A DNA stretch of 64,000 nucleotides from an uncultured Bacteroidales bacterium (lineage in GTDB: Bacteria; Bacteroidota; Bacteroidia; Bacteroidales; FEN-979), in assembly GCA_903887775.1 (NCBI GenBank), contig CAISRB010000007.1, forward strand, positions 310,001-374,000, written 5' to 3'. The position numbers and the translations under genes were made by a program. Shown here one piece after another: positions 2,188 to 54,264 of this stretch (the first letter of the stretch is position 1; each line of letters opens with the position of its first letter). The notes below the pieces were generated by a model. It saw only the letters and a list, made by a program, of their open reading frames with translations. It was not told where the DNA came from and ran no database searches.

Positions 2188-4860
2188 TTGGGATACACTG
2201 TCGGAAAAATAGCAGAAATCATCTCCGGTAAGATCTTACCGGGAGGGGATCCTGGAACCGGGATCCTCGACCTGCTTATCGACAGCCGCCGCCTGATCAG
2301 GCCGGAAGGTACAATGTTCGTTGCGGTTGTCACGCCAAGGAACGACGGACACCAGTATATCGGGGAGTTGTATGAAAAGGGGGTGAGGGTGTTTCTTATC
2401 TCAAAAAATCCGAAGGATTTTTTGAGAAGCGAGAAGCGAGAAGCGGGAAGCGAAATTTTCGATACCTCGCTACCTCGCTGCCTTGCTGCCTTCATCATGG
2501 TCGACGATACCCTGAAGGCTTTGCAGCAGCTTGCTGCATTCCACCGCCGGCAGTTTGACATTCCGGTAGTCGGGATCACCGGCAGCAATGGCAAAACCAT
2601 TGTAAAGGAATGGCTGTACCAACTGCTGAGCCCTGATCTCAACATCATCCGCAGTCCCAAATCATATAACTCCCAGATAGGTGTGCCGCTTTCGGTATGG
2701 AAGATGGAAAAAGAACACCAGCTTGCCATTTTTGAAGCCGGAATATCCGAACCAGGAGAAATGGAAAAGCTTGAAGAGATCATAAAACCCGAATACGGGA
2801 TCATTACAAATATTGGTCACGCACATGACGAGCATTTTTCAAGCGCCATCCAGAAGACAGATGAAAAACTCAGGCTTTTCAGACATTGCAATCTGCTTGT
2901 TTATTGCTCCGATCATGAGCTGATCGACCGCTGCGTCAAATTCTGCGATCCTGCCCGCACATACACTCCTTTCTCATGGAGCAGGAGCAAACCGGCGGAC
3001 CTGTTTGTAAAAGAAGTGTCGAAAAACGCGATGAACCTGACGACCGTAACGGTAGTTACAAAAGCCGGAAAGGAGTTAAGCTTCAGTATTCCCTTTACTG
3101 ACGAGGCTTCGATTGAAAATGCCATACATTGTTTTGCACTGATCATTGCGATGCAAAATGGAAGCGAAAAGCGGGAAGCGAAAAGCGAAAAAGATGCTTC
3201 AGAGAGCATTTTGCATGAGCCGCATCAGGTGAAGCAAAGCGGAACCGTTGCGGCGTTTCAAAGATGCAAGCAAAAGCAAGATGTAAACAGTATGGAAATA
3301 GCTTCTCGTTTTGCCTCGCTTGCTCCCATCGCCATGCGTCTCGAACTGAAAGATGCCATCAACCGCTGCTCCCTTATCAATGACTCTTACAACAGCGACA
3401 TCAACTCACTGAGTATCGCTCTCGATTTCCTTCTCCGGCAAAATCAGCATGGGAAAAAAACAGTGATCCTATCCGATATCCTGCAGAGCGGAAGAGATAA
3501 GAATGATTTATATAACGAAATAGCGGCTTTGCTTGATAGCAAGGGTATTGACAAACTCATTGGCATTGGGAGGGATATGAACAAGTATGCCGACAAGTTC
3601 AACATGCAGAAGAGCTTTTTCTATACCACCGATGACTTCCTGATGCATTATCCCGTTTCATCTTTCCAGGATGAAAGCATACTTCTGAAAGGCGCACGGC
3701 TCTTCGAGTTTGAACGGATCAGCAACGTGCTTCAGCAAAAGGCACATGAAACGGTACTGGAGATCAACCTCGATGCCATGGTGCACAACCTTAACTACTA
3801 CAGATCCCTGCTGAACCCTGGAGTGAAACTTATGGGGATGGTCAAAGCCTTTTCATATGGAAGCGGGAGTTTCGAAATAGCAAACCTCCTTCAATACCAC
3901 CGGGCCGACTACCTGGCCGTAGCATATGCCGATGAAGGCGTTGTACTGCGGAGAGCGGGCATTCATCTGCCTGTCATGGTGATGAGCCCCGAAGAAAGCA
4001 GCCTGGATACCCTTTTAAAGTATAATCTTGAACCGGAGATCTACAATCTGCATATCCTGGATCAGCTGGAAGAGACTGTAAAGAGAAATCAAACCTCGAA
4101 CCAGGAAGCTATTCGTGTACACATCAAACTCGATACTGGGATGCATAGGCTGGGGTTCCAGGAAGAGGAATTGAAGAAGTTGATCGGTAGGCTGACAAAC
4201 AGTTCAGATGCATCCCGCATTTCTGTAGTATCGGTCTTTTCCCATCTCGCAGCCAGCGAAGATCCATCTGAAGATGATTTTACAACAAAGCAGATCGCCT
4301 TATTTGAAAGCATGAGCAGCAGTATCATAAAAGCACTGGGTTACCCGGTCTTACGGCATATCCTGAATTCAGCCGGCATCAGCCGTTTCCCGGAAGCCCG
4401 CTTCGATATGGTGCGCCTGGGGATCGGGCTTTACGGGGTTGGGGCAACAGTAGAAGAACAGTTAAAAATGAGGAATGTAAGCACCCTGCGTACTATCGTC
4501 ATCCAGCTGAAATATATTAAACAAGGTGAAACGATCGGCTATGGCCGAAAAGGCAGGGCGGTCAAAGATTGTGTGATTGCCGTGATCCCGATAGGCTATG
4601 CCGACGGGCTTAACCGCAGGCTCGGAAATGGAGCGGGGAAAGTATATATTGATGGAAAAGCCGCAGCTGTCATTGGGAATGTGTGTATGGACCTATGCAT
4701 GGCTGATGTGACGGGAATGAGCGTTAAGGAGGGGGATGAAGTGGTTATCTTTAATGATGCTCATCCTTTGACTGAACTTGCAACAACTGCAGGGACCATC
4801 CCATATGAAGTGATGACCGGAATCTCCGGAAGAGTTAAACGTATCTATTACCACGAATGA
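2188..4860 (+). CDS. murF: Bifunctional MurF ligase / alanine racemase fusion with two in-frame repeat insertions
   Basis: Peptidoglycan precursor enzyme. The N-terminal MurF half adds D-Ala-D-Ala to UDP-MurNAc-tripeptide; the C-terminal half racemises alanine. This fusion is characteristic of Bacteroidota. The ATP loop GITGSNGKT lies at residues 129-137 and the Mur ligase substrate segment RLELKDAINR near 380. In the racemase half, the PLP lysine is K553 (VKAFSYGSG) and the catalytic tyrosine Y785 (IGYGRKG). The start is taken as TTG at 2188, because an in-frame stop lies two codons upstream and the MurF N-terminus begins there. At 890 aa it is longer than typical fusions (about 820-840, from memory). 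The excess is explained by translated repeat DNA at about residues 80-101 and 325-368. It overlaps the next gene by 4 nt (ATGA). Confidence 0.93.
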   Translation: MGYTVGKIAEIISGKILPGGDPGTGILDLLIDSRRLIRPEGTMFVAVVTPRNDGHQYIGELYEKGVRVFLISKNPKDFLRSEKREAGSEIFDTSLPRCLAAFIMVDDTLKALQQLAAFHRRQFDIPVVGITGSNGKTIVKEWLYQLLSPDLNIIRSPKSYNSQIGVPLSVWKMEKEHQLAIFEAGISEPGEMEKLEEIIKPEYGIITNIGHAHDEHFSSAIQKTDEKLRLFRHCNLLVYCSDHELIDRCVKFCDPARTYTPFSWSRSKPADLFVKEVSKNAMNLTTVTVVTKAGKELSFSIPFTDEASIENAIHCFALIIAMQNGSEKREAKSEKDASESILHEPHQVKQSGTVAAFQRCKQKQDVNSMEIASRFASLAPIAMRLELKDAINRCSLINDSYNSDINSLSIALDFLLRQNQHGKKTVILSDILQSGRDKNDLYNEIAALLDSKGIDKLIGIGRDMNKYADKFNMQKSFFYTTDDFLMHYPVSSFQDESILLKGARLFEFERISNVLQQKAHETVLEINLDAMVHNLNYYRSLLNPGVKLMGMVKAFSYGSGSFEIANLLQYHRADYLAVAYADEGVVLRRAGIHLPVMVMSPEESSLDTLLKYNLEPEIYNLHILDQLEETVKRNQTSNQEAIRVHIKLDTGMHRLGFQEEELKKLIGRLTNSSDASRISVVSVFSHLAASEDPSEDDFTTKQIALFESMSSSIIKALGYPVLRHILNSAGISRFPEARFDMVRLGIGLYGVGATVEEQLKMRNVSTLRTIVIQLKYIKQGETIGYGRKGRAVKDCVIAVIPIGYADGLNRRLGNGAGKVYIDGKAAAVIGNVCMDLCMADVTGMSVKEGDEVVIFNDAHPLTELATTAGTIPYEVMTGISGRVKRIYYHE
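2424..2490. repeat. AAGCGAG-type heptamer hairpin inside murF-alr
   Basis: Tandem GAGAAGC/GGGAAGC units (2424-2452) are followed by a partial inverted arm of ACCTCGCT units (2463-2490). The block is read in frame as residues like SEKREAGSEIF and PRCLAAF, between the first MurF beta-alpha segment and the DDTLKAL helix. Confidence 0.75.
3161..3290. repeat. Composite heptamer plus REP-like palindrome inside murF-alr
   Basis: Three to four AAGCGAA/GGGAAGC units (3161-3192) are followed by a REP-like palindrome at 3206-3267. It is the same family as the copies at 32720, 41279, 44098 and 54265. The block is translated in frame (residues around HEPHQVKQSGTVAAF) between the MurF central domain and the C-terminal Rossmann-like domain. 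Confidence 0.75.
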
Positions 4861-6314
4861 AAGTACTGATTATAGGGGCCGGTCCGGCAGGCTTAAGCTG
4901 CGGTTATGAACTGGCGAAAGCAGGAATTGAAGTTGAGGTGTATGAAGCCTCACCCTTCGTTGGCGGGATGGCCCGCAGCTTCGATCTCTGGGGTCAGAGG
5001 GTCGACATAGGGCCTCACCGCTTCTTTTCAAAGGAAAAGCATATCAACGAGTTTTTTACGACTTTGGTGAAGGATGATTACACCCTGGTAAACCGGATGA
5101 CCCGGATCTATTACCGGAACCGCTTCTTCCATTATCCCATCAAGCTGTTCAATGTGCTGAGGAACCTGCCACCGACAACGATCTTCATGATACTCTGGGA
5201 ATACGTGAGGATCCGGATTTTCCCATACAAAGACCCGAAGACATTCGAAGAATGGGTTTCGAACCGTTTCGGGCGCAAACTGTTCGAGATCTTCTTCAAG
5301 CATTATTCAGAAAAACTCTGGGGTATTTCCACTTCAAAGATAGACGCCGACTGGGCCGCCCAGCGTATAAAATCGCTTTCTCTTTGGGAAGCCGTGATCA
5401 GCGCGATCTTCGGTAATAAGGGAGACAAACATAAGACCCTTCTCGACCAGTTTGCGTATCCCGATAACGGCACAGGTACAATTTATGAACGGGCTGCAGA
5501 TTATATCCTGAATCACGGAGGGAAGGTGAACCTGCAGACGCCTGTGAAAGGAGTGATACAGGATGCAGGGTTAGGGATTAGGGATCAGGGGTCAGGGACC
5601 AGGGATCGGGGATCAGGGGTTACGGGGATAGAATTAAAAGACGGGACTATAGTGAAGGCCGACTATGTCGTATCGACGATGCCGCTTACATTATTGCTGA
5701 AAGGCCTTAAAGATGTGCCTGCGGATGTGATTTCGGCGGCTGAGAAGCTGTATTTCCGCAATACTTTACTGGTGTACCTGGAAGTGGACTCCATGGATCT
5801 GTTTGCTGATAACTGGATATATGTGCATTCGCCTGAAGTAAAACACGGCAGGATCACTAATTTCCGCAACTGGAGCAGGGAACTGAACCGTGATAAAAAG
5901 ACAACCATCCTTTGTATGGAATTTTGGGCCTTTGACCATGACGCCATCTGGACAGATAATGATGAGAATATTGCAGAACTGGCGAAGAAAGAGATCCACC
6001 TCCTGAAACTGGTGCCTCAGCAGACGAAGATATTAAATGCTTTTGTACTTAGGGTTCCCCGCTGCTATCCTGTGTACGAAACGGGTTACCAGGTCAATCT
6101 GAAAAAGGTTGAGACTTATCTTGATACAGTCGAAAACCTTATCCCTATTGGCCGTTACGGTGCCTTCAAATACAACAACCAGGACCACTCCATTCTGATG
6201 GGCATACTGGCTGCCGACAAGATTACCCAGGGTCTCGACACCGACCTCTGGAAAATCAATACCGATGTGGAGTACCAGGAGGAAGCGAGGATCAAAGATG
6301 TACTTATACAATAA
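4857..6314 (+). CDS. FAD/NAD(P)-binding oxidoreductase, UDP-galactopyranose-mutase/protoporphyrinogen-oxidase-like
   Basis: An N-terminal Rossmann fold (GAGPAGLSCGYELAKAG, residues 7-23) followed by GGMARSF and the GPHRFF segment place it in the amine-oxidase/UGM-like flavoprotein superfamily. Members of this group commonly sit in polysaccharide loci and may reduce or isomerise a sugar or isoprenoid-linked substrate. The exact reaction cannot be told from sequence. At 485 aa it includes an insert near residues 238-259 (GLGIRDQGSGTRDRGSGV) produced by translated GGGATCA heptamers. The start ATG overlaps the murF-alr stop by 4 nt, which suggests translational coupling. It lies directly upstream of the GT-C-like genes, so a role in sugar-donor preparation is an inference from context. 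Confidence 0.75.
   Translation: MKVLIIGAGPAGLSCGYELAKAGIEVEVYEASPFVGGMARSFDLWGQRVDIGPHRFFSKEKHINEFFTTLVKDDYTLVNRMTRIYYRNRFFHYPIKLFNVLRNLPPTTIFMILWEYVRIRIFPYKDPKTFEEWVSNRFGRKLFEIFFKHYSEKLWGISTSKIDADWAAQRIKSLSLWEAVISAIFGNKGDKHKTLLDQFAYPDNGTGTIYERAADYILNHGGKVNLQTPVKGVIQDAGLGIRDQGSGTRDRGSGVTGIELKDGTIVKADYVVSTMPLTLLLKGLKDVPADVISAAEKLYFRNTLLVYLEVDSMDLFADNWIYVHSPEVKHGRITNFRNWSRELNRDKKTTILCMEFWAFDHDAIWTDNDENIAELAKKEIHLLKLVPQQTKILNAFVLRVPRCYPVYETGYQVNLKKVETYLDTVENLIPIGRYGAFKYNNQDHSILMGILAADKITQGLDTDLWKINTDVEYQEEARIKDVLIQ
5567..5627. repeat. GGGATTA/GGGATCA heptamer array inside flavoprotein gene
   Basis: About eight tandem degenerate 7-bp units (GGGATTA, GGGATCA, GGGGTCA, GGGACCA, GGGATCG and similar). 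They are read in frame as a Gly/Arg/Asp/Ser-rich loop. No inverted arm is present. The same unit class forms a hairpin at 43423-43503. Confidence 0.85.
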
Positions 6315-7884: not shown

Positions 7885-9738
7885 ATGGGTGAAGAGCAAA
7901 AAGCGAAAAGTGAAAAGCGAAAGCTGAAGAGCGAATTTCATCGCGATTTGAGTAGCGAAAACTATTCACTCAATCACTCAATCACTTCATCTGTTAATCC
8001 ATCCCGTGACAGGATCTTATTTCTCATTCTCTTTGCCATCAGCATTTTTCTCACGATGAATTCGAACATCCGTGACGGGCATGTGAGGCATCCCGGAAAG
8101 ATATGGTCCGATGCTGCGCATTACTATGTATACATGCCGGCCACATTCATCTATGGATGGGATGCTTTCCGCTTTCCATACAAGATCGAAAAGAAATTTG
8201 AAGGCTTTCTGCTGAATGATAAAACAGGAAAGGTCGAAATAAAAGCCACCTGCGGAGAGGCTATTCTCCTTACCCCTTTCTTCCTGGCTGCCCATGCATC
8301 AGCCTGGGCTTTCAAACTGCCCATGGATGGATTTTCCTCCTTCTATCAGGTATTCATGCTCATCGGCTGCGTGTTTTACTTCGTCCTTGGTTTGTATTTC
8401 CTGAAGAAATTCCTCGACCGGTATTTCAGGCATGCAATATCCCTGGCCGTGATCCTGATACTGGCCTTCGCCACACAGCTTTATTTTTACGCATTTGACC
8501 AGGCGCTGATGTCGCATGTATACTCTTTTTTCCTGTTCAGCGCATTTATTTACCTGCTGAAGGTGTACCTCGACGGAGGCAAACGGTCAGCCACCCTCTT
8601 TGCCTTGTTAAGCCTGAGCCTGGCGCTGGCTGTTTTGCTGAGGCCCACGAATATTTTGGTTATTCTTTGGATGGCGTTTCTCGACCTGAAATCGGCTAGG
8701 GAACTTTGGCAGCGCCTGCTGTTCTTCCTGAATCCCAAACGCAGCCTTATATATATAGCCATACAGTTTATTGTCCTCGTTCCCCAATTCCTTTACTGGA
8801 AATACCTTTCGGGACATTACGTATACTATTCCTATCCCGGGGAGGAGTTTTTCTGGGGGTATCCTATGCTGCTGCAGATCTGGTTTTCACCCTTTAACGG
8901 CTTATTCCCCTATCATCCCGTATTTTTTCTTTTCCTGGCTGGAATGGTTATCATGATTTGCCGGAGGAAGCTGAACGGAATTTTTTCACTCGTTTTTTTT
9001 ATGCTGGCATCCTATGTTTTTTCGTGCTGGCATTGCTGGTTCTATGGAGGAAGTTTCGGATTCCGGCCCCTTGCCGAGTTTACGGTGTTTATGGCTTTGC
9101 CCCTGGGATACCTCATCAGCCGGATCATTGAATGGAAGAATTTGTTTCTGAAATCATCGATGGTTGTGATTTTCATGCTGCTCATCTTTTACAACCTGAT
9201 GCAGTTTTACCATTACCAGATATTCACTGCCGGCATGTGGTCATGGGACGACTTCTTCATCAAATTAAAGAATTGTGAGCTGGTTGATTATCCCCAGAAA
9301 ACCTATACCTGGAAAACCGATTTTTCAAATATATACGGGTACGAACCCGTCTTTCACACCTGGCAGCACGCACGCTCGAGAGTCATTGCAAGTTACTGCG
9401 ATAAAAACATATCCGACAATGTACATTATAAGCGCCGGCTTTCGGCCATCCTTGACCACCCGGTTGAAAGGATTAAATTGTCGGTATGGGTTTATGCCGA
9501 AGATGCCGATTCAACCCATGCAATCTGGGTCTGCCGTATCGACAGCGCAGGGACACTGATCTTTTTCAGGAGTATTTCATTTGACGATTTCGTAAATAAA
9601 AAGGATATTTACACCGAAGTTCACGGAACCATTGAGATTCCCGAATGGGTCGACCAGAATTCGGCCATCCATTTTTATATCTGGAATCCAAAAGGACGGG
9701 AATTCTATTTTGATGATATGACGATCGGATTCGAATGA
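7885..9738 (+). CDS. GT-C-like multi-pass glycosyltransferase with C-terminal DDL domain; N-tail encoded by repeat DNA
   Basis: 617-aa inner-membrane protein. Residues 1-45 are a hydrophilic tail rich in Lys, Ser and Glu. It is encoded by AAGCGAA-type heptamers and a short CAATCACT repeat, so the ancestral protein probably began near SRDRILFLILF. After the first helix comes a periplasmic loop with KIWSDAAHYYVYMPATF, whose Asp resembles the catalytic acid position of lipid-linked-sugar GT-C enzymes. About ten further helices follow. The C-terminal beta-rich domain ends HFYIWNPKG...FYFDDMTIGFE. The donor and acceptor are unknown. It is co-transcribed with the genes at 6425 and 9740 (gaps of 1-2 nt). 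Confidence 0.75.
   Translation: MGEEQKAKSEKRKLKSEFHRDLSSENYSLNHSITSSVNPSRDRILFLILFAISIFLTMNSNIRDGHVRHPGKIWSDAAHYYVYMPATFIYGWDAFRFPYKIEKKFEGFLLNDKTGKVEIKATCGEAILLTPFFLAAHASAWAFKLPMDGFSSFYQVFMLIGCVFYFVLGLYFLKKFLDRYFRHAISLAVILILAFATQLYFYAFDQALMSHVYSFFLFSAFIYLLKVYLDGGKRSATLFALLSLSLALAVLLRPTNILVILWMAFLDLKSARELWQRLLFFLNPKRSLIYIAIQFIVLVPQFLYWKYLSGHYVYYSYPGEEFFWGYPMLLQIWFSPFNGLFPYHPVFFLFLAGMVIMICRRKLNGIFSLVFFMLASYVFSCWHCWFYGGSFGFRPLAEFTVFMALPLGYLISRIIEWKNLFLKSSMVVIFMLLIFYNLMQFYHYQIFTAGMWSWDDFFIKLKNCELVDYPQKTYTWKTDFSNIYGYEPVFHTWQHARSRVIASYCDKNISDNVHYKRRLSAILDHPVERIKLSVWVYAEDADSTHAIWVCRIDSAGTLIFFRSISFDDFVNKKDIYTEVHGTIEIPEWVDQNSAIHFYIWNPKGREFYFDDMTIGFE
7893..7975. repeat. AAGCGAA-type repeat forming the 5' coding end of a GT-C gene
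   Basis: Units AAAGCGA, AAAGTGA, AAAGCGA and AAGCTGA at 7898-7935 are followed by degenerate AGCGAAT/AGCGAAA units and then by CAATCACT repeats to 7987. All lie after the ATG at 7885 and are read in frame. Confidence 0.75.
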
Positions 9739-25864: not shown

Positions 25865-27007
25865 ATGAAAAAACAAATTCTTGTTATGGGGGCCGGTCTG
25901 GTTGGTGGCGCTATGGCTCTTGACCTGTCAAAGGATGAACGGTTTGAGGTAACGGTTGTTGACTACAATGCCGATGCACTTGCAAAAGTCGCCGCAGCCG
26001 GCAAAATGCATGTCCTTCACCGTGATCTTAGCGATCCTTCGCAGGTCCGTGAACTGGCAGGCTCATTCGACATGGTGGTCAATGCCGTACCGGGCTTCAT
26101 GGGGTTTCAGACCTTCAAAGCCGTGGCTGAAGCAGGACGTGATATTGTCGACATCTCTTTTTTTATAGAAGATCCGTTTACGGTGGATGAGATCGCGCGT
26201 AAACAAAACATTACAGCGGTAATGGACTGCGGTGTGGCACCCGGCATGTGCAATGTGCTCATCGGGGATGCTCATCACCTGCTCGACAAGACCGAGAACG
26301 TAGTATATTATGTGGGTGGATTGCCGGAGATCCGCGAATGGCCGTATGAATACAAGGCTGTTTTTTCACCTGTGGATGTTCTCGAGGAATATACCCGCCC
26401 CGCAAGATTTATTGTTGGAGGAACCACGGTTGTCAAACCCGCCCTGAGCGACCCCGAACTGATGAACTTCCCAGGAGTAGGCACTCTTGAAGCCTTTAAT
26501 ACCGATGGCTTACGTTCGCTGGTCCGCACGATCAAGGCCCCTAATATGATGGAAAAAACCCTGCGCTACCCCGGCCATATTGAAAAAATGCGGGTGTTGC
26601 GCGAAACCGGATTCTTCTCAAAGGAAGAGATCCAGGTAAAGGGAGTAAAAATACGCCCTATTGATCTTACTTCAAACCTCCTGTTCCCAAGCTGGAAATT
26701 CACCGAAAATGATGTAGACATCACCGTGATGAAAGTGGTTGTGGAAGGCATCAAGGACAAGAAACGCACACGGTTTACCTGGGATCTTTTCGATCGCAAG
26801 GATGAAAAGACCGGTATCCATTCAATGGCCCGCACCACCGGTTACACCGCAACCGTGGCTTTGCGCATGATCGCCGATGGCGTATTCACGCAGAAAGGCG
26901 TAATTGTTCCCGAATACTTTGGAGCACATCCAAAATGCGTAGATTATTTACTCAAAGGTCTTCGCGAAAGAGGGGTCGTGTATAAAGAGAAGGTGGAGGA
27001 AATATAA
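25865..27007 (+). CDS. Saccharopine dehydrogenase-family NAD(P)-binding protein
   Basis: 380 aa. The Rossmann motif GAGLVGGAMALDL is at residues 8-20, with the family's MDCGVAPGMCNVL around 120 and a C-terminal domain with the RTTGYTATVAL segment. The family reduces or oxidises C-N bonds between amino acids (saccharopine, carboxynorspermidine and relatives). Which substrate applies here cannot be read from sequence. It stands alone between divergent GT2 and convergent PBP1A genes, and its stop is followed directly by a long heptamer array. Confidence 0.85.
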   Translation: MKKQILVMGAGLVGGAMALDLSKDERFEVTVVDYNADALAKVAAAGKMHVLHRDLSDPSQVRELAGSFDMVVNAVPGFMGFQTFKAVAEAGRDIVDISFFIEDPFTVDEIARKQNITAVMDCGVAPGMCNVLIGDAHHLLDKTENVVYYVGGLPEIREWPYEYKAVFSPVDVLEEYTRPARFIVGGTTVVKPALSDPELMNFPGVGTLEAFNTDGLRSLVRTIKAPNMMEKTLRYPGHIEKMRVLRETGFFSKEEIQVKGVKIRPIDLTSNLLFPSWKFTENDVDITVMKVVVEGIKDKKRTRFTWDLFDRKDEKTGIHSMARTTGYTATVALRMIADGVFTQKGVIVPEYFGAHPKCVDYLLKGLRERGVVYKEKVEEI

Positions 27008-27141
27008 AAAAGCGAAAAGCGAAAAGCGAAAGGCGAAAGACGAAAAGCGAAAAGCGAAAAGCGAAAGGCGAAAGGCGAAAAGCGAAAAGCGAAAGGCGAA
27101 AAGCGAAAGGCGAAAGGCGAACCATTTCGCTATTTCGTTAT
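27008..27141. repeat. Long AAGCGAA heptamer array with short inverted arm
   Basis: About 16 tandem 7-bp units (AAGCGAA, AGGCGAA, AGACGAA variants) at 27009-27120 precede a short reverse-complement arm (TTTCGCTATTTCGTTATTT, 27124-27142). The array fills the space between the converging stops of the saccharopine dehydrogenase-like gene and PBP1A. It is the longest array of this class in the window. Confidence 0.9.
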
Positions 27142-31182: not shown

Positions 31183-32373
31183 CTACAAAGGTACGAAATT
31201 CGGTTTAAAAAGGCGCAGTATTTTCAGGGAGAGGTCAAGGAAAAGCGCCGGGGCATATGCATTACGTTCCACATGGTAGATTGCGGTGTTGAAGAGCTCG
31301 TGGAATCCGGCCAGGCCGGCAGTGTTGATAGTCGGAGCAAATTTTTCCAGGAACTTAGCTTCTTCGGCGTCGGCGCTGAGTCTGCCGGCCTGGCCGTAAA
31401 CCACAGCCGGGCAAAGTTCAAGCATATGAAGGCTGTAATGCAGGAAAGCTTTTTGTTTTTCCCTTCCCGACTTAGCCATCTCGCCCGCGAAGCTGATCAG
31501 GTCAGGAACTCTCATCCCAGCACAGTTCCGCATCCAGGTTATAAACGTCTTAAAATACTGGTTTTCAATTGCATATTCATCTCTTCGGAGTATATCCCTA
31601 TCGGGTGGAATTCTTACAAAAAGGCATCTCGACCTGATCGTGCTGATGATCTGGTCAGGATCTTCAGTCACCAGAAGGAAAAGTGTTTTCTCGGGCGGCT
31701 CCTCCATTATCTTCAGGATCTTCGGAGCGGCTGAATGAAAAAGCTTCTCCGCCATCCAGATAATCATGACCTTATATTCTGATTCGTAAGTTTTATAGCT
31801 GAGGGTTGAAATGATCTCGTTGCAGTCCTCGGCATTGATGATACCTTGTTTATTCTCAATACCAATGAAATCATACCAGTCCTGGAGGTTTACAGGAAAT
31901 GGCCTTTGCAGGAAAAACTTTCTCCAGTCTTCAATAAACAGCTTGCTTTGTGGCTTTTTAGGGACTCTCCGGGTGGTCGCAACGGGATAAATAAAATGCA
32001 GGTCCGGGTGTATGAGTTTCTGGTACTTCAGGCAGGACGGGCAGGTACCACATGAGTCTGTTGAAGTAGCGAAATAGCGAGGTAGCGAGGTAGCGAAAGA
32101 GTCAGTAGCGAGGTAGCGAGGTAGCGAGGTAGCGAAAGAATCAGTAGCGAGGTAGCGAGGTGGCGAAGTAGCGAAATCATTAGATTCTGGCGTGGCAGGT
32201 AGTTTCAGGCGGTTTTTACAATTTATGTATTGAGCATAAGCTATCGCCAGGGCAAGTTTAGCGGAGCTTTCCGGTCCGTAAAACAACTGTGCATGGCTCA
32301 CCCTCTGGTCGGTAACCGTCCGGATAAGTTTTTCTTTTATAGCCTGCTGGCCGGGTATGTCCTGGAAGCGCAT
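31183..32373 (-). CDS. holB: DNA polymerase III delta-prime-like clamp-loader subunit with in-frame repeat insertion
   Basis: 396 aa, AAA+ clamp-loader subunit. It opens with MRFQDIPGQQAIKEKLIRTV and HAQLFYGPESSAKLALAIAYAQYINC. The zinc-binding module follows (CGTCPSCLKY), then HPDLHFIYPV, a segment typical of Bacteroidota delta-prime. Sensor-1-like VMIIWMAEKLFHSAAPKILKIMEEPP follows. Between the first cysteine (residue about 52) and CGTC lie about 40 extra residues of repeated DSFATSLPRYLAT. They are encoded by AGCGAGGT octamers. The P-loop is degenerate, as in many delta-prime subunits. First gene of the minus-strand operon ending with PBP1A. Confidence 0.88.
   Translation of the reverse strand: MRFQDIPGQQAIKEKLIRTVTDQRVSHAQLFYGPESSAKLALAIAYAQYINCKNRLKLPATPESNDFATSPPRYLATDSFATSLPRYLATDSFATSLPRYFATSTDSCGTCPSCLKYQKLIHPDLHFIYPVATTRRVPKKPQSKLFIEDWRKFFLQRPFPVNLQDWYDFIGIENKQGIINAEDCNEIISTLSYKTYESEYKVMIIWMAEKLFHSAAPKILKIMEEPPEKTLFLLVTEDPDQIISTIRSRCLFVRIPPDRDILRRDEYAIENQYFKTFITWMRNCAGMRVPDLISFAGEMAKSGREKQKAFLHYSLHMLELCPAVVYGQAGRLSADAEEAKFLEKFAPTINTAGLAGFHELFNTAIYHVERNAYAPALFLDLSLKILRLFKPNFVPL
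31186..31193 (-). promoter_or_regulatory. Putative -7 element TACCTTTG upstream of ricT
   Basis: On the minus strand this reads TACCTTTG, matching TAnnTTTG, 18 nt before the ricT ATG at 31167 and inside the end of holB. It suggests an internal promoter for ricT-gldH-PBP1A. Confidence 0.45.
32064..32178. repeat. AGCGAGGT octamer array inside holB
   Basis: Around 13 direct units of GTAGCGAG/GTAGCGAA are arranged in higher-order blocks of about 43 bp separated by AGAATCA or AGAGTCA. They are read in frame on the minus strand as DSFATSLPRYLAT repeats. No inverted arm is present. Confidence 0.85.
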
Positions 32374-32786: not shown

Positions 32787-33533
32787 TCAGTCCCAGGATG
32801 TTTTTGCACACATGAATTCAAGGTTCATGCGGGCAATGTTCGATCGCGAGATGCTTTTCGGGCATTCGGCTTCGCAGGCATAGGTATTCGTACAGTTTCC
32901 GAAGCCGAGTTCGTCCATCATTTTTACCATTTTCATGACCCTCACTTTAGCTTCTGGCCGGCCCTGGGGAAGCAAGGCAAACTGGGATACTTTCGCCGAG
33001 ACAAACAGCATTGCAGAAGCATTTTTGCATGCCGCAACGCAGGCGCCGCAACCAATGCATGCGGCAGCGTCCATCGACAGTTCAGCAGCAGGTTTGGGGA
33101 TCAGTATGTGGTTGGCTTCCATCGCACCGCCCGTATTCACAGCAATGTACCCGCCTTCCTGTATGATCTTGTCAAAGGCCGTTCGGTCAACCATCAGGTC
33201 TTTGATAACCGGGAATGGCTTCGCGCGCCAGGGTTCTATGGTAATGGTCTCCCCGTCTTTGAACTTTCTCATATGAAGCTGGCAGGCTGTAACGGCATCA
33301 TCAGGTCCATGGGGGCGGCCGTTGATATACAGGCTGCACATCCCGCAGATACCTTCGCGGCAGTCGTGATCGAACACCACCGGTTCTTCATTTTTCCCGA
33401 TCAGGCTTTCATTCAGGATATCGAGCATCTCCAGGAAAGAACAATTCGGGGAAATTCCTTCGAGCTTATAGGTCACGAATTTTCCCTTTGATTTGGCATC
33501 TTTCTGCCTCCAGATCTTGAGTGTTAGGTTCAT
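32787..33533 (-). CDS. sdhB: Succinate dehydrogenase/fumarate reductase iron-sulfur subunit
   Basis: 248 aa. The N-terminal plant-type ferredoxin domain carries [12 protein letters not shown] for the [2Fe-2S] cluster. The C-terminal domain carries [16 protein letters not shown] and CEAECPKSI for the [4Fe-4S] and [3Fe-4S] clusters. It transfers electrons between the SdhA flavin and the quinone at the inner membrane. It should follow sdhA directly, but about 600 bp containing a four-helix-bundle ORF and inverted repeats separate them. The reading frame itself is intact. Confidence 0.96.
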
Positions 33534-33555
33534 AAGTGGATTATTTTATATAAAA

Positions 33556-33591
33556 GCCATGAGCCATAAGGCATGAGGCATGAGTCATGAG
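33556..33591. repeat. Left arm of CATGAGG heptamer inverted repeat
   Basis: Five 7-bp units, reverse complement of the right arm. It overlaps the stop codon of the four-helix-bundle gene. Confidence 0.85.
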
Positions 33592-33974
33592 TTATTAATT
33601 TTAGGATTGTTTTCAATTTTCCTGATCAAGCTATTTAACATTTTACTGATTTCTTCATTCGAAACAAAAAGTGATTTCCAGTCATCATGATTAATGTAAT
33701 TAAGTTCAAGAGCAATTGTCAATAAGGTATCAAGTTCATAAAGCGACCCTCTGGAAATTTTAAGAAACTGCGTATAGTTTTTTGAACTATCTCTTCCCCA
33801 GCCTTCTGCAATATTTGCCGAAATTGAAACCACTGCTCTTCTGCTTTGACTGATCAGCCCGAATTTTTCTTTGTCAGGAAAATTCTCAGTTATACTATAT
33901 ACAACCTTGGCATATTGAATTGCCTTTTTATATACCTCCAGATCATGATATGTAATAACTTTCTTCTTTTCCAT
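33585..33974 (-). CDS. Four helix bundle protein (23S rRNA intervening-sequence protein/S23 family)
   Basis: 129 aa from ATG 33974 (MEKKKVITYHDLEVYKKAIQ). An upstream in-frame ATG at 33995 lies within the repeat boundary and is less likely. The family pattern is clear: YHDLEVYKKAIQYAKVVYSI, ITENFPDKEKFGLISQSRRA, VSISANIAEGWGR and YTQFLKISRGSLYELDTLL. Family members occur in loops of 23S rRNA intervening sequences and include the Avd accessory proteins of diversity-generating retroelements. Their function outside Avd is unsettled. The C-terminus and stop lie in the left repeat arm. No reverse transcriptase is nearby. Confidence 0.93.
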   Translation of the reverse strand: MEKKKVITYHDLEVYKKAIQYAKVVYSITENFPDKEKFGLISQSRRAVVSISANIAEGWGRDSSKNYTQFLKISRGSLYELDTLLTIALELNYINHDDWKSLFVSNEEISKMLNSLIRKIENNPKINNS

Positions 33975-33981
33975 CCCTAAT

Positions 33982-34133
33982 CCCTTATGGCTCATGCCTC
34001 ATGGCTCATGGCTCATGCCTCATGCCTCATGGCTCATGCCTCATGGCTCATGCCTCATGCCTCATGGCTCATGGCTCATGGCTCATGGCTCATGGCTCAT
34101 GCCTCATGCCTCATGCCTCATGGCTCATGGCTA
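33982..34133. repeat. Right arm of CATGAGG heptamer inverted repeat, about 20 units
   Basis: 140 nt of perfect 7-bp periodicity (33991-34130) with two alternating unit types, CTCATGC and CTCATGG. The array ends exactly at the sdhA TAG codon (minus strand). Length variation between strains is likely. Confidence 0.92.
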
Positions 34134-36068
34134 TTTATAATTCCTTGCTTTCACTTCAGTTTCTTCATAAACCAGCTGTTCTTTGTGCAGCCTGAATTCA
34201 CCTTCTTTCACATATTCCCATGCGGCTACATATTTGTAGTTCTCGTCGTCACGGAGGCATTCGCCTTCAGGGGTCTGGTATTCCTCCCTAAAATGACCTC
34301 CGCAGCTTTCATTGCGATTCAGTGCGTCAAGGGCCAGCAGTTCTCCCATTTCCAGGAAATCGGCTACACGGTTTGCTTTTTCAAGTTCCACGTTCATCTC
34401 GTCAGGTTTTCCGGGGATGCGCACATCGGTCCAGAACTTCTTGCGAAGATCCCTGATAAGGGCGATTCCACTGGTCAGGCCTTCCTTTGTACGTCCCATC
34501 CCTACATGTTCCCACATGATCTTTCCGAGTTCCTTATGGAAGTGGTCAACGCTCCTGGTCCCCTGAACAGACATCAGCTTGCTGATACGCTCCTGAACCC
34601 TCTTTTCAGCTTCTTCAAATTCCTTCTTGTCGGTAGACATCCTCTGTGTTTTGATCTCTGCGGATAAGTAGTTCTGCACCGTATAGGGAAGAACGAAATA
34701 ACCGTCGGCCAGGCCCTGCATCAGGGCTGATGCCCCCAGCCGGTTTGCGCCATGATCGGAGAAGTTGGCTTCGCCGGCCACGAATAATCCGGTGACAGTC
34801 GACATCAGTTCATAGTCAACCCATAATCCGCCCATGGCGTAATGAACAGCAGGGAAGATCATCATCGGGTTTTCATATGGATTTTCATCGACTATCTTTT
34901 CATACATCTGGAAAAGGTTGCCGTAACGCTCTTCGATCACATGCTTTCCAAGCCTTGCAATGGATTCCTTGAAATCGAGGAATACAGCTAATCCGGTCGG
35001 GCCTACTCCAAACCCGGCATCACAGCGCTCCTTGGCAGCCCGGGAGGCAACGTCGCGGGGTACGAGGTTCCCAAAAGCCGGATACCTGCGTTCAAGGAAA
35101 TAATCGCGGTCTTCTTCAGGAATATCGTTTGCTTTAAGCTTTCCCAGGCGGTTTTTCTCAGCATCTTCTTTTTTCTTAGGCACCCAGATACGGCCGTCAT
35201 TCCTGAGGCTTTCGCTCATCAGGGTGAGTTTCGACTGGTAGTCGCCATGCACGGGTATACAGGTGGGGTGGATCTGGGTGAAGCAGGGATTGGCAAAATA
35301 AGCGCCTTGTTTCATAGCCTGCCAAAGGGCGCTTGTATTGCATCCCATGGCATTTGTCGAGAGATAGAATACATTCCCGTATCCTCCTGTAGCAAGGACC
35401 ACTGCATGACCGAAATAACGTTCCAGTTTGCCTGTGATGAGGTCACGTGCTATGATGCCGCGGGCTTTGCCATCGACCATAACCAGGTCCATCATTTCAT
35501 GGCGGTTGTACATCTTCACCATGCCCAGCTTGATCTGCCGGCTCAGGGCAGAATAGGCGCCCAAAAGAAGCTGCTGCCCCGTCTGACCGCGGGCAAAAAA
35601 GGTCCTTGAAACCTGTGCTCCGCCAAAGGAACGGTTTTCAAGCGATCCACCGTATTCACGCGCAAAAGGAACACCCTGGGCCACACACTGATCAATGATC
35701 GCATTGCTCACTTCAGCAAGCCGGTATACATTGGCTTCACGGGCACGGTAATCCCCCCCCTTCAAAGTATCATAAAACAAACGGTAAACACTGTCGCCGT
35801 CGTTCGGGTAATTCTTTGCAGCATTGATGCCGCCCTGGGCAGCTATGCTGTGGGCGCGCCTGGGGCTGTCCTGGTAACAGAATATCTTTACATTGAAACC
35901 CAGTTCTCCAAACGAAGCTGCAGCGGAAGCGCCTGCAAGCCCGGTACCTACAACAATAATATCGAGTTTGCGCTTGTTCGACGGATTGACCAGGTTCTGG
36001 TGGGCCTTGTAATTGCTCCACTTCTGGGATACGGGCCCTTTCGGGATTTTTGAATTCAACTCAGCCAT
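34131..36068 (-). CDS. sdhA: Succinate dehydrogenase/fumarate reductase flavoprotein subunit
   Basis: 645 aa from ATG 36068 ([15 protein letters not shown]). The longer frame upstream runs through sdhC. It shows the FAD Rossmann motif [14 protein letters not shown] and the covalent-flavin segment [33 protein letters not shown] and the C-terminal [19 protein letters not shown] with the active-site arginine region follow. It oxidises succinate or reduces fumarate at the cytosolic face of the membrane. It begins 5 nt after sdhC. Its stop codon is contiguous with the heptamer array, so the 3' end is preserved exactly. Confidence 0.96.
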
Positions 36069-36073
36069 AAAGC

Positions 36074-36742
36074 CTAACGGATAAGTAAAAAGTAAATTGG
36101 AATGATGATAAAGCCTAAAGGAATAACGATGGAATAAATAATGCCGAACCACTCAATACATTTCGTGTATTTTGTGAAATTCAGCCCGAGGCTCTGAAAA
36201 GCAGCCTGGAAAGCATGGTTCAGGTGGAAGCCAAGCACGATAAACAGCACAATATATGACAGGGAATATGCCGGCAGACTAAACAGGTCAATTGCCCTCT
36301 GGTAAAAATTCGGATCCCCGTCGGCAAACCTGGGTCCCTCAACCCAGCCCAGCTTGATGGCGTAAAAATTCATCAGGTGGATCACCAGGAAGATAAAGAT
36401 GATGCCGCCGGTCCATATCATATACTTTGAAAGGAAAGGAGTTGTGCTTTTGTTGTTCACTGCATACCTTACCGGGCGCGACATCCAGTTCTGAACCTGG
36501 AGAATGATCCCAAGCAGAATGTGAAAAATGAAGCCGGCAAACAAAACCACTTCGAAGGTTTTCACGACATAGTTGGTGCCCATGAAATAAGCCGCGTCGT
36601 TAAACCACCTTCCGCCATCACTGCGCAGCAGGCAGAGGTTAATACTCACATGCACCACAAGGAAAATCAGAAGGAAAATCCCGAGTAATGCCATCCAGAT
36701 CTTTTTCGTAATGGACGAGAAACGTAAAAATGAAGCGCTCAT
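36074..36742 (-). CDS. sdhC: Succinate dehydrogenase cytochrome b subunit (b558 type)
   Basis: 222-aa integral membrane subunit with five hydrophobic helices and histidines placed for di-heme ligation ([45 protein letters not shown]). This is typical of the Bacteroidota/Bacillus-type single-polypeptide anchor. It binds menaquinone and passes electrons to or from SdhB. First gene of the sdhCAB operon, read leftward from a likely promoter near 36830. Confidence 0.95.
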
Positions 36743-38290: not shown

Positions 38291-38365
38291 AAAAAGCGAG
38301 TAGCGAAAAGCGAAAAGCGAAATGAAAATCTCGAAATTTCGCCTTTCGCCTTTCACTTTTCGTCT
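38291..38365. repeat. AAGCGAA-type heptamer hairpin
   Basis: Left arm AAAAGCGAGTAGCG then AAAAGCGAAAAGCGAAAT (38292-38322) and right arm TTTCGCCTTTCGCCTTTCAC... (38335-38362). It lies between the pepP stop and the first codon of the broken transporter gene. Confidence 0.88.
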
Positions 38366-43422: not shown

Positions 43423-43503
43423 ATTAGGGGTTAGGGAATAGGGATTAGGTGTAAGTTCTTTCACCCATTCCCCACTCCCCAAACCCTAATCCCCATTCCC
43501 CAT
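43423..43503. repeat. GGGATTA-type heptamer hairpin
   Basis: Left arm AGGGGTTAGGGAATAGGGAT with TAGG (43424-43448) and right arm of CCCCATT/CCCTAAT units (43467-43502), loop about 20 nt. It uses the same unit class as the array translated inside the flavoprotein at 5567. It abuts the hsp20 stop codon. Confidence 0.88.
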
Positions 43504-43928
43504 TACGATATTTTGATCTCTTTCTTCGTTTCCAGCTTTGCTTCCTGAAGCTTCGGCATGGTAACCTTGAGAATACCTTCGAGGTAGTCTGCTTTTATAT
43601 CCTCGAGATTGATGGTTTTAGGCAGCGTGAAGGAACGGCTGAATGAGCCATAATAAAATTCCTTACGGGTGTAATTCTTGCCTTCTTCTTTCTTCTCATC
43701 TTCAAGTTCGGCTGATATCGTGAGAACGCTGTTCTCAAGATGAATTTTGAAATCGTCTTTTTTCAGTCCGGGAGCAGCAATCTCCAGCATGAATGAATCA
43801 TTCAGTTCAACTATGTTTGCAGCCGGATCTGTGATCCGTTTTCCAAAAAAATCACCCAATTCGTTTTCAAAGAAATTACTCATCATGTCGCCTAAAGGGT
43901 TTCTCTGGTGCCATCTGATCAGTGTCAT
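43503..43928 (-). CDS. Small heat shock protein (Hsp20/alpha-crystallin)
   Basis: 141 aa, cytosolic holdase. The alpha-crystallin domain (about residues 35-125) shows FMLEIAAPGLKKDDFKIHLE, YYGSFSRSFTLPKTINLEDI and the closing ADYLEGILKVTMPK. The C-terminal tail has the I-x-I-like KEIKIS used for oligomer contacts. N-terminus MTLIRWHQRNPLGDM is typical of Bacteroidota Hsp20. An AGGAGGT-like stretch 6 nt before the ATG (43933-43942, minus strand) is an unusually good Shine-Dalgarno sequence for this phylum. Confidence 0.95.
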   Translation of the reverse strand: MTLIRWHQRNPLGDMMSNFFENELGDFFGKRITDPAANIVELNDSFMLEIAAPGLKKDDFKIHLENSVLTISAELEDEKKEEGKNYTRKEFYYGSFSRSFTLPKTINLEDIKADYLEGILKVTMPKLQEAKLETKKEIKIS

Positions 43929-54184: not shown

Positions 54185-54258
54185 CGAGGTAGCGAGAAGC
54201 GAGAAGCGAAAAGCGAAAAGCGAAATAGCGAAATTTCACATTTCGCTTTTCGCTTTTA
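54183..54258. repeat. AAGCGAA-type heptamer hairpin
   Basis: Left arm passes from AGCGAGGT through AGCGAGA to AAGCGAA units and AGCGAAAT (54184-54231). Right arm TTTCGCTTTTCGC (54241-54256). It starts within the stop codon of the REC-HK-REC gene and combines octamer and heptamer unit types. Confidence 0.88.
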
Positions 54259-54264
54259 TTGAGG

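Follow-up and report, generated by a model that had tools for sequence, protein, structure and literature searches.

The sdhA-sdhB junction described here raises the question of why a gene of the S23 (four-helix-bundle) family should lie inside a protein-coding operon, framed by tandem repeats in opposite orientations. A sequence-only reading of the 64,000-nucleotide stretch of Bacteroidales DNA that was analyzed (the window) had described a 129-aa S23-family gene between inverted CATGAGG arrays, one reaching the sdhA stop codon and the other lying over the stop codon of the S23 gene itself. Both points are confirmed in the sequence. On the minus strand, the window contains, in order, sdhC (36074-36742; cytochrome b558 type, the operon's first gene, NCBIfam TIGR02046), the upstream host gene sdhA (34131-36152; NCBIfam NF005749/TIGR01811; a candidate start only, with a frame that overlaps sdhC), a heptad array (33987-34132), the S23 open reading frame (ORF; 33585-33974), an inverted array (33558-33591), and the downstream host gene sdhB (32787-33533; NCBIfam NF005746). 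In the sense of the mRNA, the 5' arm has a TRF period of 7 with about 20.9 units of ATGAGSC, and the 3' arm has the same period with about 4.9 units; both consist of CATGAGS-type heptads, in opposite orientations. The long array extends into the stop codon of sdhA (34131-34133), and the stop codon of S23 (33585-33587) lies within the short one. The S23 frame spans 33585-33995 with a likely start at 33974 (MEKKKV...), the longer frame beginning within the array, and its product matches PF05635 (128.6 bits, above a cut-off of 33.8) and TIGR02436 (119.6 bits; cut-off, 24). It is the sole ORF of at least 80 aa between the arms.

The arms are far from what shuffled sequence yields. A doubled heptamer with up to one mismatch has 16 matches versus 0.05 expected from shuffles, and the inverted-arm score of the locus is 71 versus a maximum of 24 among 100 dinucleotide shuffles. 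In the predicted RNA fold, the arms pair around the S23 ORF (-192.6 kcal/mol; z, -5.8 against 20 shuffles), with the extra units of the long arm folding on themselves. We propose that the locus is one copy of a mobile element of about 0.4 to 0.6 kb, composed of a heptad arm, an S23 ORF, and an inverted heptad arm, which inserts between the genes of operons; we put the probability of this reading, including the mRNA looping and RNase III steps set out below, at about 0.7.

Genes of this family are common among relatives. PF05635 has four matches in the window's genome, and arms accompany three of these; matches were present in all 43 genomes of the window's family that were searched, with up to 22 per genome (about 347 in total by table sum), and the S23 family was found in 157 of 198 sampled Bacteroidota genomes. 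We scored inverted flanks by comparing the left flank of each gene with the reverse complement of its right flank (L numbers denote S23 or junction loci, and G numbers denote genomes within the window's family). In the first family set, the window's genus was read whole and the remainder was taken from among the highest scores; it held 102 S23 entries after removal of 11 duplicate loci, and 7 short-flanked entries were set aside, leaving 95. Scores above all 100 dinucleotide shuffles were obtained for 81 of these 95 entries (0 of 8 in a single array-free lineage and 81 of the remaining 87), with no arms found in the other 14. Of two control sets, random segments gave such scores in 11 of 950 cases and other ORFs in 3 of 59. 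Because this first sample favored high scores, we added 60 lower-scoring family copies, 55 of which had full flanks; 49 of the 55 lay above shuffles, and no arms were found in 6. A copy's own flank pair scored at least 34 in 46 of the 55, and its left flank against a foreign right flank did so in 3. The random-segment, other-ORF, and swapped-flank controls reject the idea that the arrays are unrelated background at S23 flanks. As the sequence-only reading had expected, S23 ORFs in related genomes regularly lie between inverted arrays, with 130 of 150 entries in the pooled family sets having inverted flanks beyond all shuffles, although many loci in these surveys are orthologs or relatives and the counts are not independent. 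Starting from S23 genes, the bond between ORF and array is strong.

The array-free lineage (L002, L039, L040, L041, L043, L045, L048, and L049) accounts for 8 of the 20 family failures. Each of the eight genomes of the window's genus carries it at the same conserved site, and this armless gene is possibly a domesticated copy. Outside the family, after removal of four duplicates and four short-flanked entries and with 60 mononucleotide shuffles as the control, 60 of 76 named-genome entries lay above the shuffles (44 with scores of at least 34), as did 30 of 50 entries from other Bacteroidota (21 with scores of at least 34); no arms were found in the remaining 16 and 20. The named-genome set spans Rhizobiales, cyanobacteria, Planctomycetes, Acidobacteria, Methanophagales, and Bacteroidota, among others. 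A few elements, such as L128 and L422, have direct instead of inverted arrays. Plasmids carry the element as well: S23 was found in 31 of 72,556 plasmid records, 29 of them cyanobacterial, and 12 of 15 plasmid loci read scored at least 34 and beyond shuffles, two of the 12 being the same element on different plasmids of a single strain. A search of 50,697 phage records with one query protein gave no match, and carriage by phages was rejected on that result.

The arms follow a common grammar. Across 219 loci the arm period is 7, or 8 (mostly in the window's family), and of 88 loci with two clearly periodic arms, 86 have equal periods; none of 219 shuffled left flanks was periodic. The units themselves vary from locus to locus. 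Even so, 54 named-genome loci share the degenerate consensus [AC]G[GT][GC]A[GA]T, at 6.45 bits versus a maximum of 3.79 after permutation of positions. In the window's family the excess is smaller for 7-mers (3.89 bits versus 3.42 for the null) and stands at 6.46 versus 4.68 bits for 8-mers; related rows inflate all three values, which were computed without loci containing runs of N. Outside the window's family, arms often have about four heptads by TRF copy number.

We compared arms and proteins across 78 family elements, using pairs with no common flanking protein. Arm k-mers are shared by 77% of the 30 pairs with S23 similarity above 0.7, at least 13 of which derive from one TTAAGTG-type set of six elements, and by 1% of the 1,412 pairs with similarity below 0.3. 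The correlation between arm and S23 similarity (rho, 0.248) exceeds the maximum of 1,000 permutations (0.137). The TTAAGTG-type set (L127, L133, L140, L142, L148, and L159) comes from six genomes in three genera, with L127 and L133 at the same site. Similar S23 proteins thus have similar arms at sites without a common flanking protein, indicating that ORF and arms travel jointly to unrelated sites. The two arms of a copy also resemble each other beyond what a shared site would give. At nuoC|nuoD, the match between an element's own arms is 37.2 versus 24.2 against the arms of orthologs (n = 16), and at the sdh site the values are 36.6 versus 23.1 (n = 17), with 0 of 20,000 permutations as high at either site; at the sdh site the own partner was the best match in just 4 of 17 rows. 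The same comparison was marginal at two further sites (P = 0.04 and 0.05) and not significant at moxR|DUF58 (P = 0.23) or at the Fe-S site (P = 0.17). These values indicate that the arms drift as pairs at orthologous sites, with a unit common to both arms.

Reciprocal occupied and empty sites are seen on Nostoc plasmids. In Nostoc sp. ATCC 53789, a paralogous operon is present on three plasmids, pNsp_a, pNsp_b, and pNsp_c; the element lies between operon genes 2 and 3 on pNsp_a, between genes 3 and 4 on pNsp_c, and at neither junction on pNsp_b, with pNsp_a and pNsp_c sharing 93, 91, and 99% identity in genes 2, 3, and 4. Among nine operon copies read, the first junction is filled in three and the second in one, a further copy has a different small ORF at the first junction, and four copies (pNsp_b, pC052_A, pC052_B, and p057_H) are empty at both, with 0 to 3 bases between genes and no array. 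The filled first junctions begin at the gene 2 stop codon, with TAG becoming TAA; the three may represent a single insertion inherited by descent. A clean target-site duplication was not found: TTCTA flanks the Nostoc element on both sides, but it also continues the arm and may be arm sequence. By sequence comparison, near-identical operons occur both with the element and without it. A further pair of states is seen at cas10|cmr3, where Picosynechococcus PCC 7002 has 12 bases and PCC 7003 has an S23 gene whose flank score is 29, below 34 (cas, nrd, and plasmid gene names were taken from the records). S23 genes are found within CRISPR operons of cyanobacterial plasmids at both cas10|cmr3 and cas6|cas4 (L421, L417, and L422).

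Thirty genomes of the window's family were read at the junction of an Fe-S subunit with the FAD/NAD-binding subunit that follows it. Three hold full elements, whose first TAG serves as the stop codon of the upstream gene; one (L390) holds a remnant composed of an arm stub, the last S23 residues, and the right array; two are clean joints of 4 and 6 bases; and the remaining genomes have other arrays or other sequence. The L390 remnant indicates that copies of the element decay. A different, C/G-rich palindrome of about 60 to 150 bases occupies this junction in L392, L396, and L409 and is perhaps another small mobile repeat. The proposal of the sequence-only reading that the window insert is a transposable element of stem plus ORF, like an rRNA intervening sequence (IVS), is supported by the inverted-flank counts, the joint travel, and the filled and empty Nostoc sites, and it extends far beyond the window.

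The sdh junction itself gives a more complicated picture. An S23 gene is present in 9 of 36 readable sdhA|sdhB junctions of the window's family (G002 being scored from the S23 C terminus at a contig start and G007 being unreadable) and in none of 69 further Bacteroidota sdh junctions. Other Bacteroidota do have S23 copies at sdhA|sdhB (Formosa, Lacinutrix, Winogradskyella, and Chitinophaga are examples), which may go back to one old insertion or to several and in most cases have weak arms or none; no arms were found at L206, L214, L217, L223, L225, and L232, all sdh-site copies outside the family. Six genus-mates have sdhB: G002 has the S23 element, G007 is cut by a contig end, and G001, G004, G005, and G006 lack S23 but have other repeats there, and a clean empty counterpart of the window insertion was not found among the six.

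Arrays without the ORF are in fact more frequent at this junction, a result that the sequence-only reading had named as contrary to its hypothesis: 19 of the 27 ORF-less family junctions have an array of period 6 to 9 (versus 1.3% of shuffled junctions), against the 9 junctions with S23. This counts against a strict bond between ORF and array at sdh. Among the further Bacteroidota junctions, an array was detected in 6 of 67 tested, and 34 were too short for one. S23-less arrays outnumber S23 elements. Among the 43 family genomes, 6 contain CATGAG arrays, and four of these belong to the window's genus (the pattern is mirror-like, so that a count of the reversed pattern is no independent control and was unused). 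The window's genome has 11 other CATGAG sites, 2 with inverted arms and 9 in a single direction, and a trace of S23 was found in none of the 11. The window alone contains about ten ORF-less period-7/8 arrays, many of them AGCGAAA (940-976, 2421-2497, 3162-3193, 5567-5627, 7892-8000, 27000-27126, 38292-38331, 43477-43508, and 54187-54261), and one shuffled window contained none. An array of similar general type with a 39-nucleotide unit (GTAGCGAG-like; 32062-32179) lies in frame within the ORF at 31183-32373 on the minus strand, where it encodes a repeated ATSLPRYLATDSF peptide.

S23-less arrays point to a different reading, in which heptad and octad arrays are a separate class of repeats in operon gaps, produced by slippage or conversion, and S23 genes merely land in, or are tolerated between, two of them. 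The ORF-less sdh junctions and the single-direction CATGAG sites favor it, as does G005, which has 20 CATGAG pattern matches while CATGAG arms are missing from both of its listed S23 copies. On this reading, it is hard to see why the arms are mostly inverted, made of a single unit, and accompany the S23 lineage at unrelated sites, why the G-rich arm lies 5' of the S23 ORF in 75 of 80 cases, or why filled Nostoc junctions have the ORF with both arms whereas the empty junctions have no array, and we regard it as unlikely. Under the mobile-element reading, ORF-less arrays could be what earlier copies left behind, arms that were multiplied in trans, or a class of their own. The suggestion that ORF-less hairpins are minimal versions of the element fared unevenly: L390, in a relative, is such a deletion remnant and the only case in which descent of an ORF-less array by deletion was seen, but the inversion and S23 counts at the 11 CATGAG sites speak against it as a general account.

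We next considered where S23 genes sit. Location within rRNA was rejected, as the window copy lies between sdhA and sdhB and 0 of 60 named-genome loci (60 of 80 were scanned) are within rRNA. Neighbor orientation, taken from longest-ORF calls rather than annotation, could be called at 105 sites: 57 copies are in sense, 20 are antisense to a co-directional pair, and 28 lie between convergent or divergent genes; co-directional sites of the family alone show a small excess of sense copies (24 versus 16 antisense). One antisense copy lies between nrdB and nrdA. Putative nuoC|nuoD copies are present in Bacteroidota (L178 and L184) and in Rhizobiales (for example, L250) and are far apart in the S23 tree, which has 214 rows and few columns. 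The names nuoC, nuoD, moxR, DUF58, and those of the Fe-S/FAD operon come from a reading of translations, with no family search.

Such recurrence could also be expected of an immobile host module, in which an S23 protein and a hairpin tune the neighboring cistrons, such as sdhB or nuoD. In its favor, sdhA|sdhB holds S23 repeatedly across Bacteroidota, nuoC|nuoD does so in Rhizobiales and at two loci of Bacteroidota, and sense copies make up 57 of 77 co-directional sites. A regulatory role at fixed sites is, however, difficult to reconcile with S23 genes in just 9 of 36 family sdh junctions and none of the 69 others, with up to 22 matches in one genome, with 148 site clusters among the loci read (clustering splits the nuoC|nuoD site into several), or with antisense copies and empty sites; we consider it improbable. 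Presence of the element among relatives is sporadic at both the sdh junctions and the Nostoc sites.

For the mobile element, insertion would occur at or beside the stop codon of the upstream gene, between consecutive operon genes. In the polycistronic mRNA, the paired arms would form a stem of at least about 30 bp, with the S23 ORF looped out. RNase III is reported to cut the stem of the Coxiella burnetii rRNA IVS (PMC4990558), and by analogy with that work it may cut the mRNA stem and excise the operon-gap element, so that the element could sit in an operon with neither host protein broken. The four-helix S23 protein might bind the stem and, together with host enzymes, help the element to be copied or moved, and the likeness of the arms could be kept by slippage and by conversion via the hairpin. 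Solved relatives of the S23 protein, 2gsc and 2rld, are presumably pentamers.

Hairpin ends and insertion in gaps would also suit a MITE- or REP-like element moved by a Y1 transposase of the IS200/RAYT type, and Y1_Tnp was found in 34 of 43 family genomes. It was not found in the other 9, which include the S23-rich G011 (16 S23 genes), G034 (10), G021 (9), and G019 (8); help from a Y1 transposase was rejected for this reason, and we give this explanation little credence. Least credible is a retroelement in which an Avd-like accessory protein works with a reverse transcriptase in trans. In its favor is a weak likeness to bAvd (28.2 bits) and DivGenRetAVD (27.6 bits), below the respective cut-offs of 40 and 80. 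RVT_1 was found in just 26 of 43 family genomes, and not in G000 (4 S23 genes), G026 (21), G018 (15), G023 (14), or G020 (10), so that encoded RVT_1 help is largely refuted, with some margin left by draft gaps. RVT_1 and Y1 transposase are both missing from three genomes with 8 to 10 S23 copies (G034, G021, and G019), so that the mobile S23 element can do without either enzyme being encoded, with a margin for gaps in these draft genomes.

To our knowledge, no role of the S23 family outside rRNA has been described. Our survey of the open literature, which covers few subscription papers, yielded no report that connects inverted heptamer arrays with S23 genes located elsewhere than in rRNA. Tying S23 to a movable unit with inverted heptad arms gives the family an anatomy and a likely life style, that of an operon-gap element, and it offers a possible source for heptamer arrays hitherto reported without explanation; the element may thereby help to explain the repeat arrays of many bacteria. 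A wider generalization, which we advance only tentatively and hold to be rather doubtful as it stands, is that S23 proteins define a transposase- and reverse transcriptase-free class of mobile elements that recognizes heptad arrays and spreads them, with the Bacteroidota, cyanobacterial, and Xanthomonas arrays as its arms or leftovers and the rRNA IVS as a special case.

Comparison with known systems sets this element apart from several classes of repeat. Heptad arrays are unlike REPs, and the S23 arms are such arrays; further, the absence of a Y1_Tnp match from G034, G021, and G019 distinguishes the element from REP/RAYT systems. Unlike MITEs or insertion sequences with a transposase, it has S23 as its only ORF of at least 80 aa between the arms, and Y1_Tnp is absent from 9 of 43 genomes. 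Avd (bAvd) of the diversity-generating retroelements is a distant sequence relative of S23, below family cut-offs, but unlike those retroelements the S23 element occurs in a genome (G000) in which no RVT_1 was found. TAACTGA repeats, described in PMC4679880 as intergenic tandem heptamers of Beggiatoaceae, cyanobacteria, and Bacteroidetes with suspected horizontal spread, differ from S23 arms in being direct and near start codons, and S23 does not appear in the main text of that paper. Closer to the S23 arms are the G-rich heptamers of Xanthomonas (GGGAATC) and Nostoc (GGGGA(C/T)T), reported as G-quadruplex repeats in PMC4692102: those of Xanthomonas mostly have four units and form 70 and 75 inverted pairs in two genomes, and those of Nostoc form just a few inverted pairs. 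The Xanthomonas heptamers fit the consensus derived from S23 loci, and the main text of PMC4692102 makes no mention of S23. The nearest counterpart is the 23S rRNA IVS, where the same protein family is encoded in the loop of an inverted-repeat stem. In Coxiella burnetii (PMC4990558), heptamer repeats lie directly before the S23 ORF and the stem is 28 bp, similar to the arms of about four heptads seen outside the window's family. The element described here differs from that rRNA IVS in occupying gaps between protein-coding genes of operons, in being present in several copies per genome, and in having a repeat unit that differs from one element to the next.
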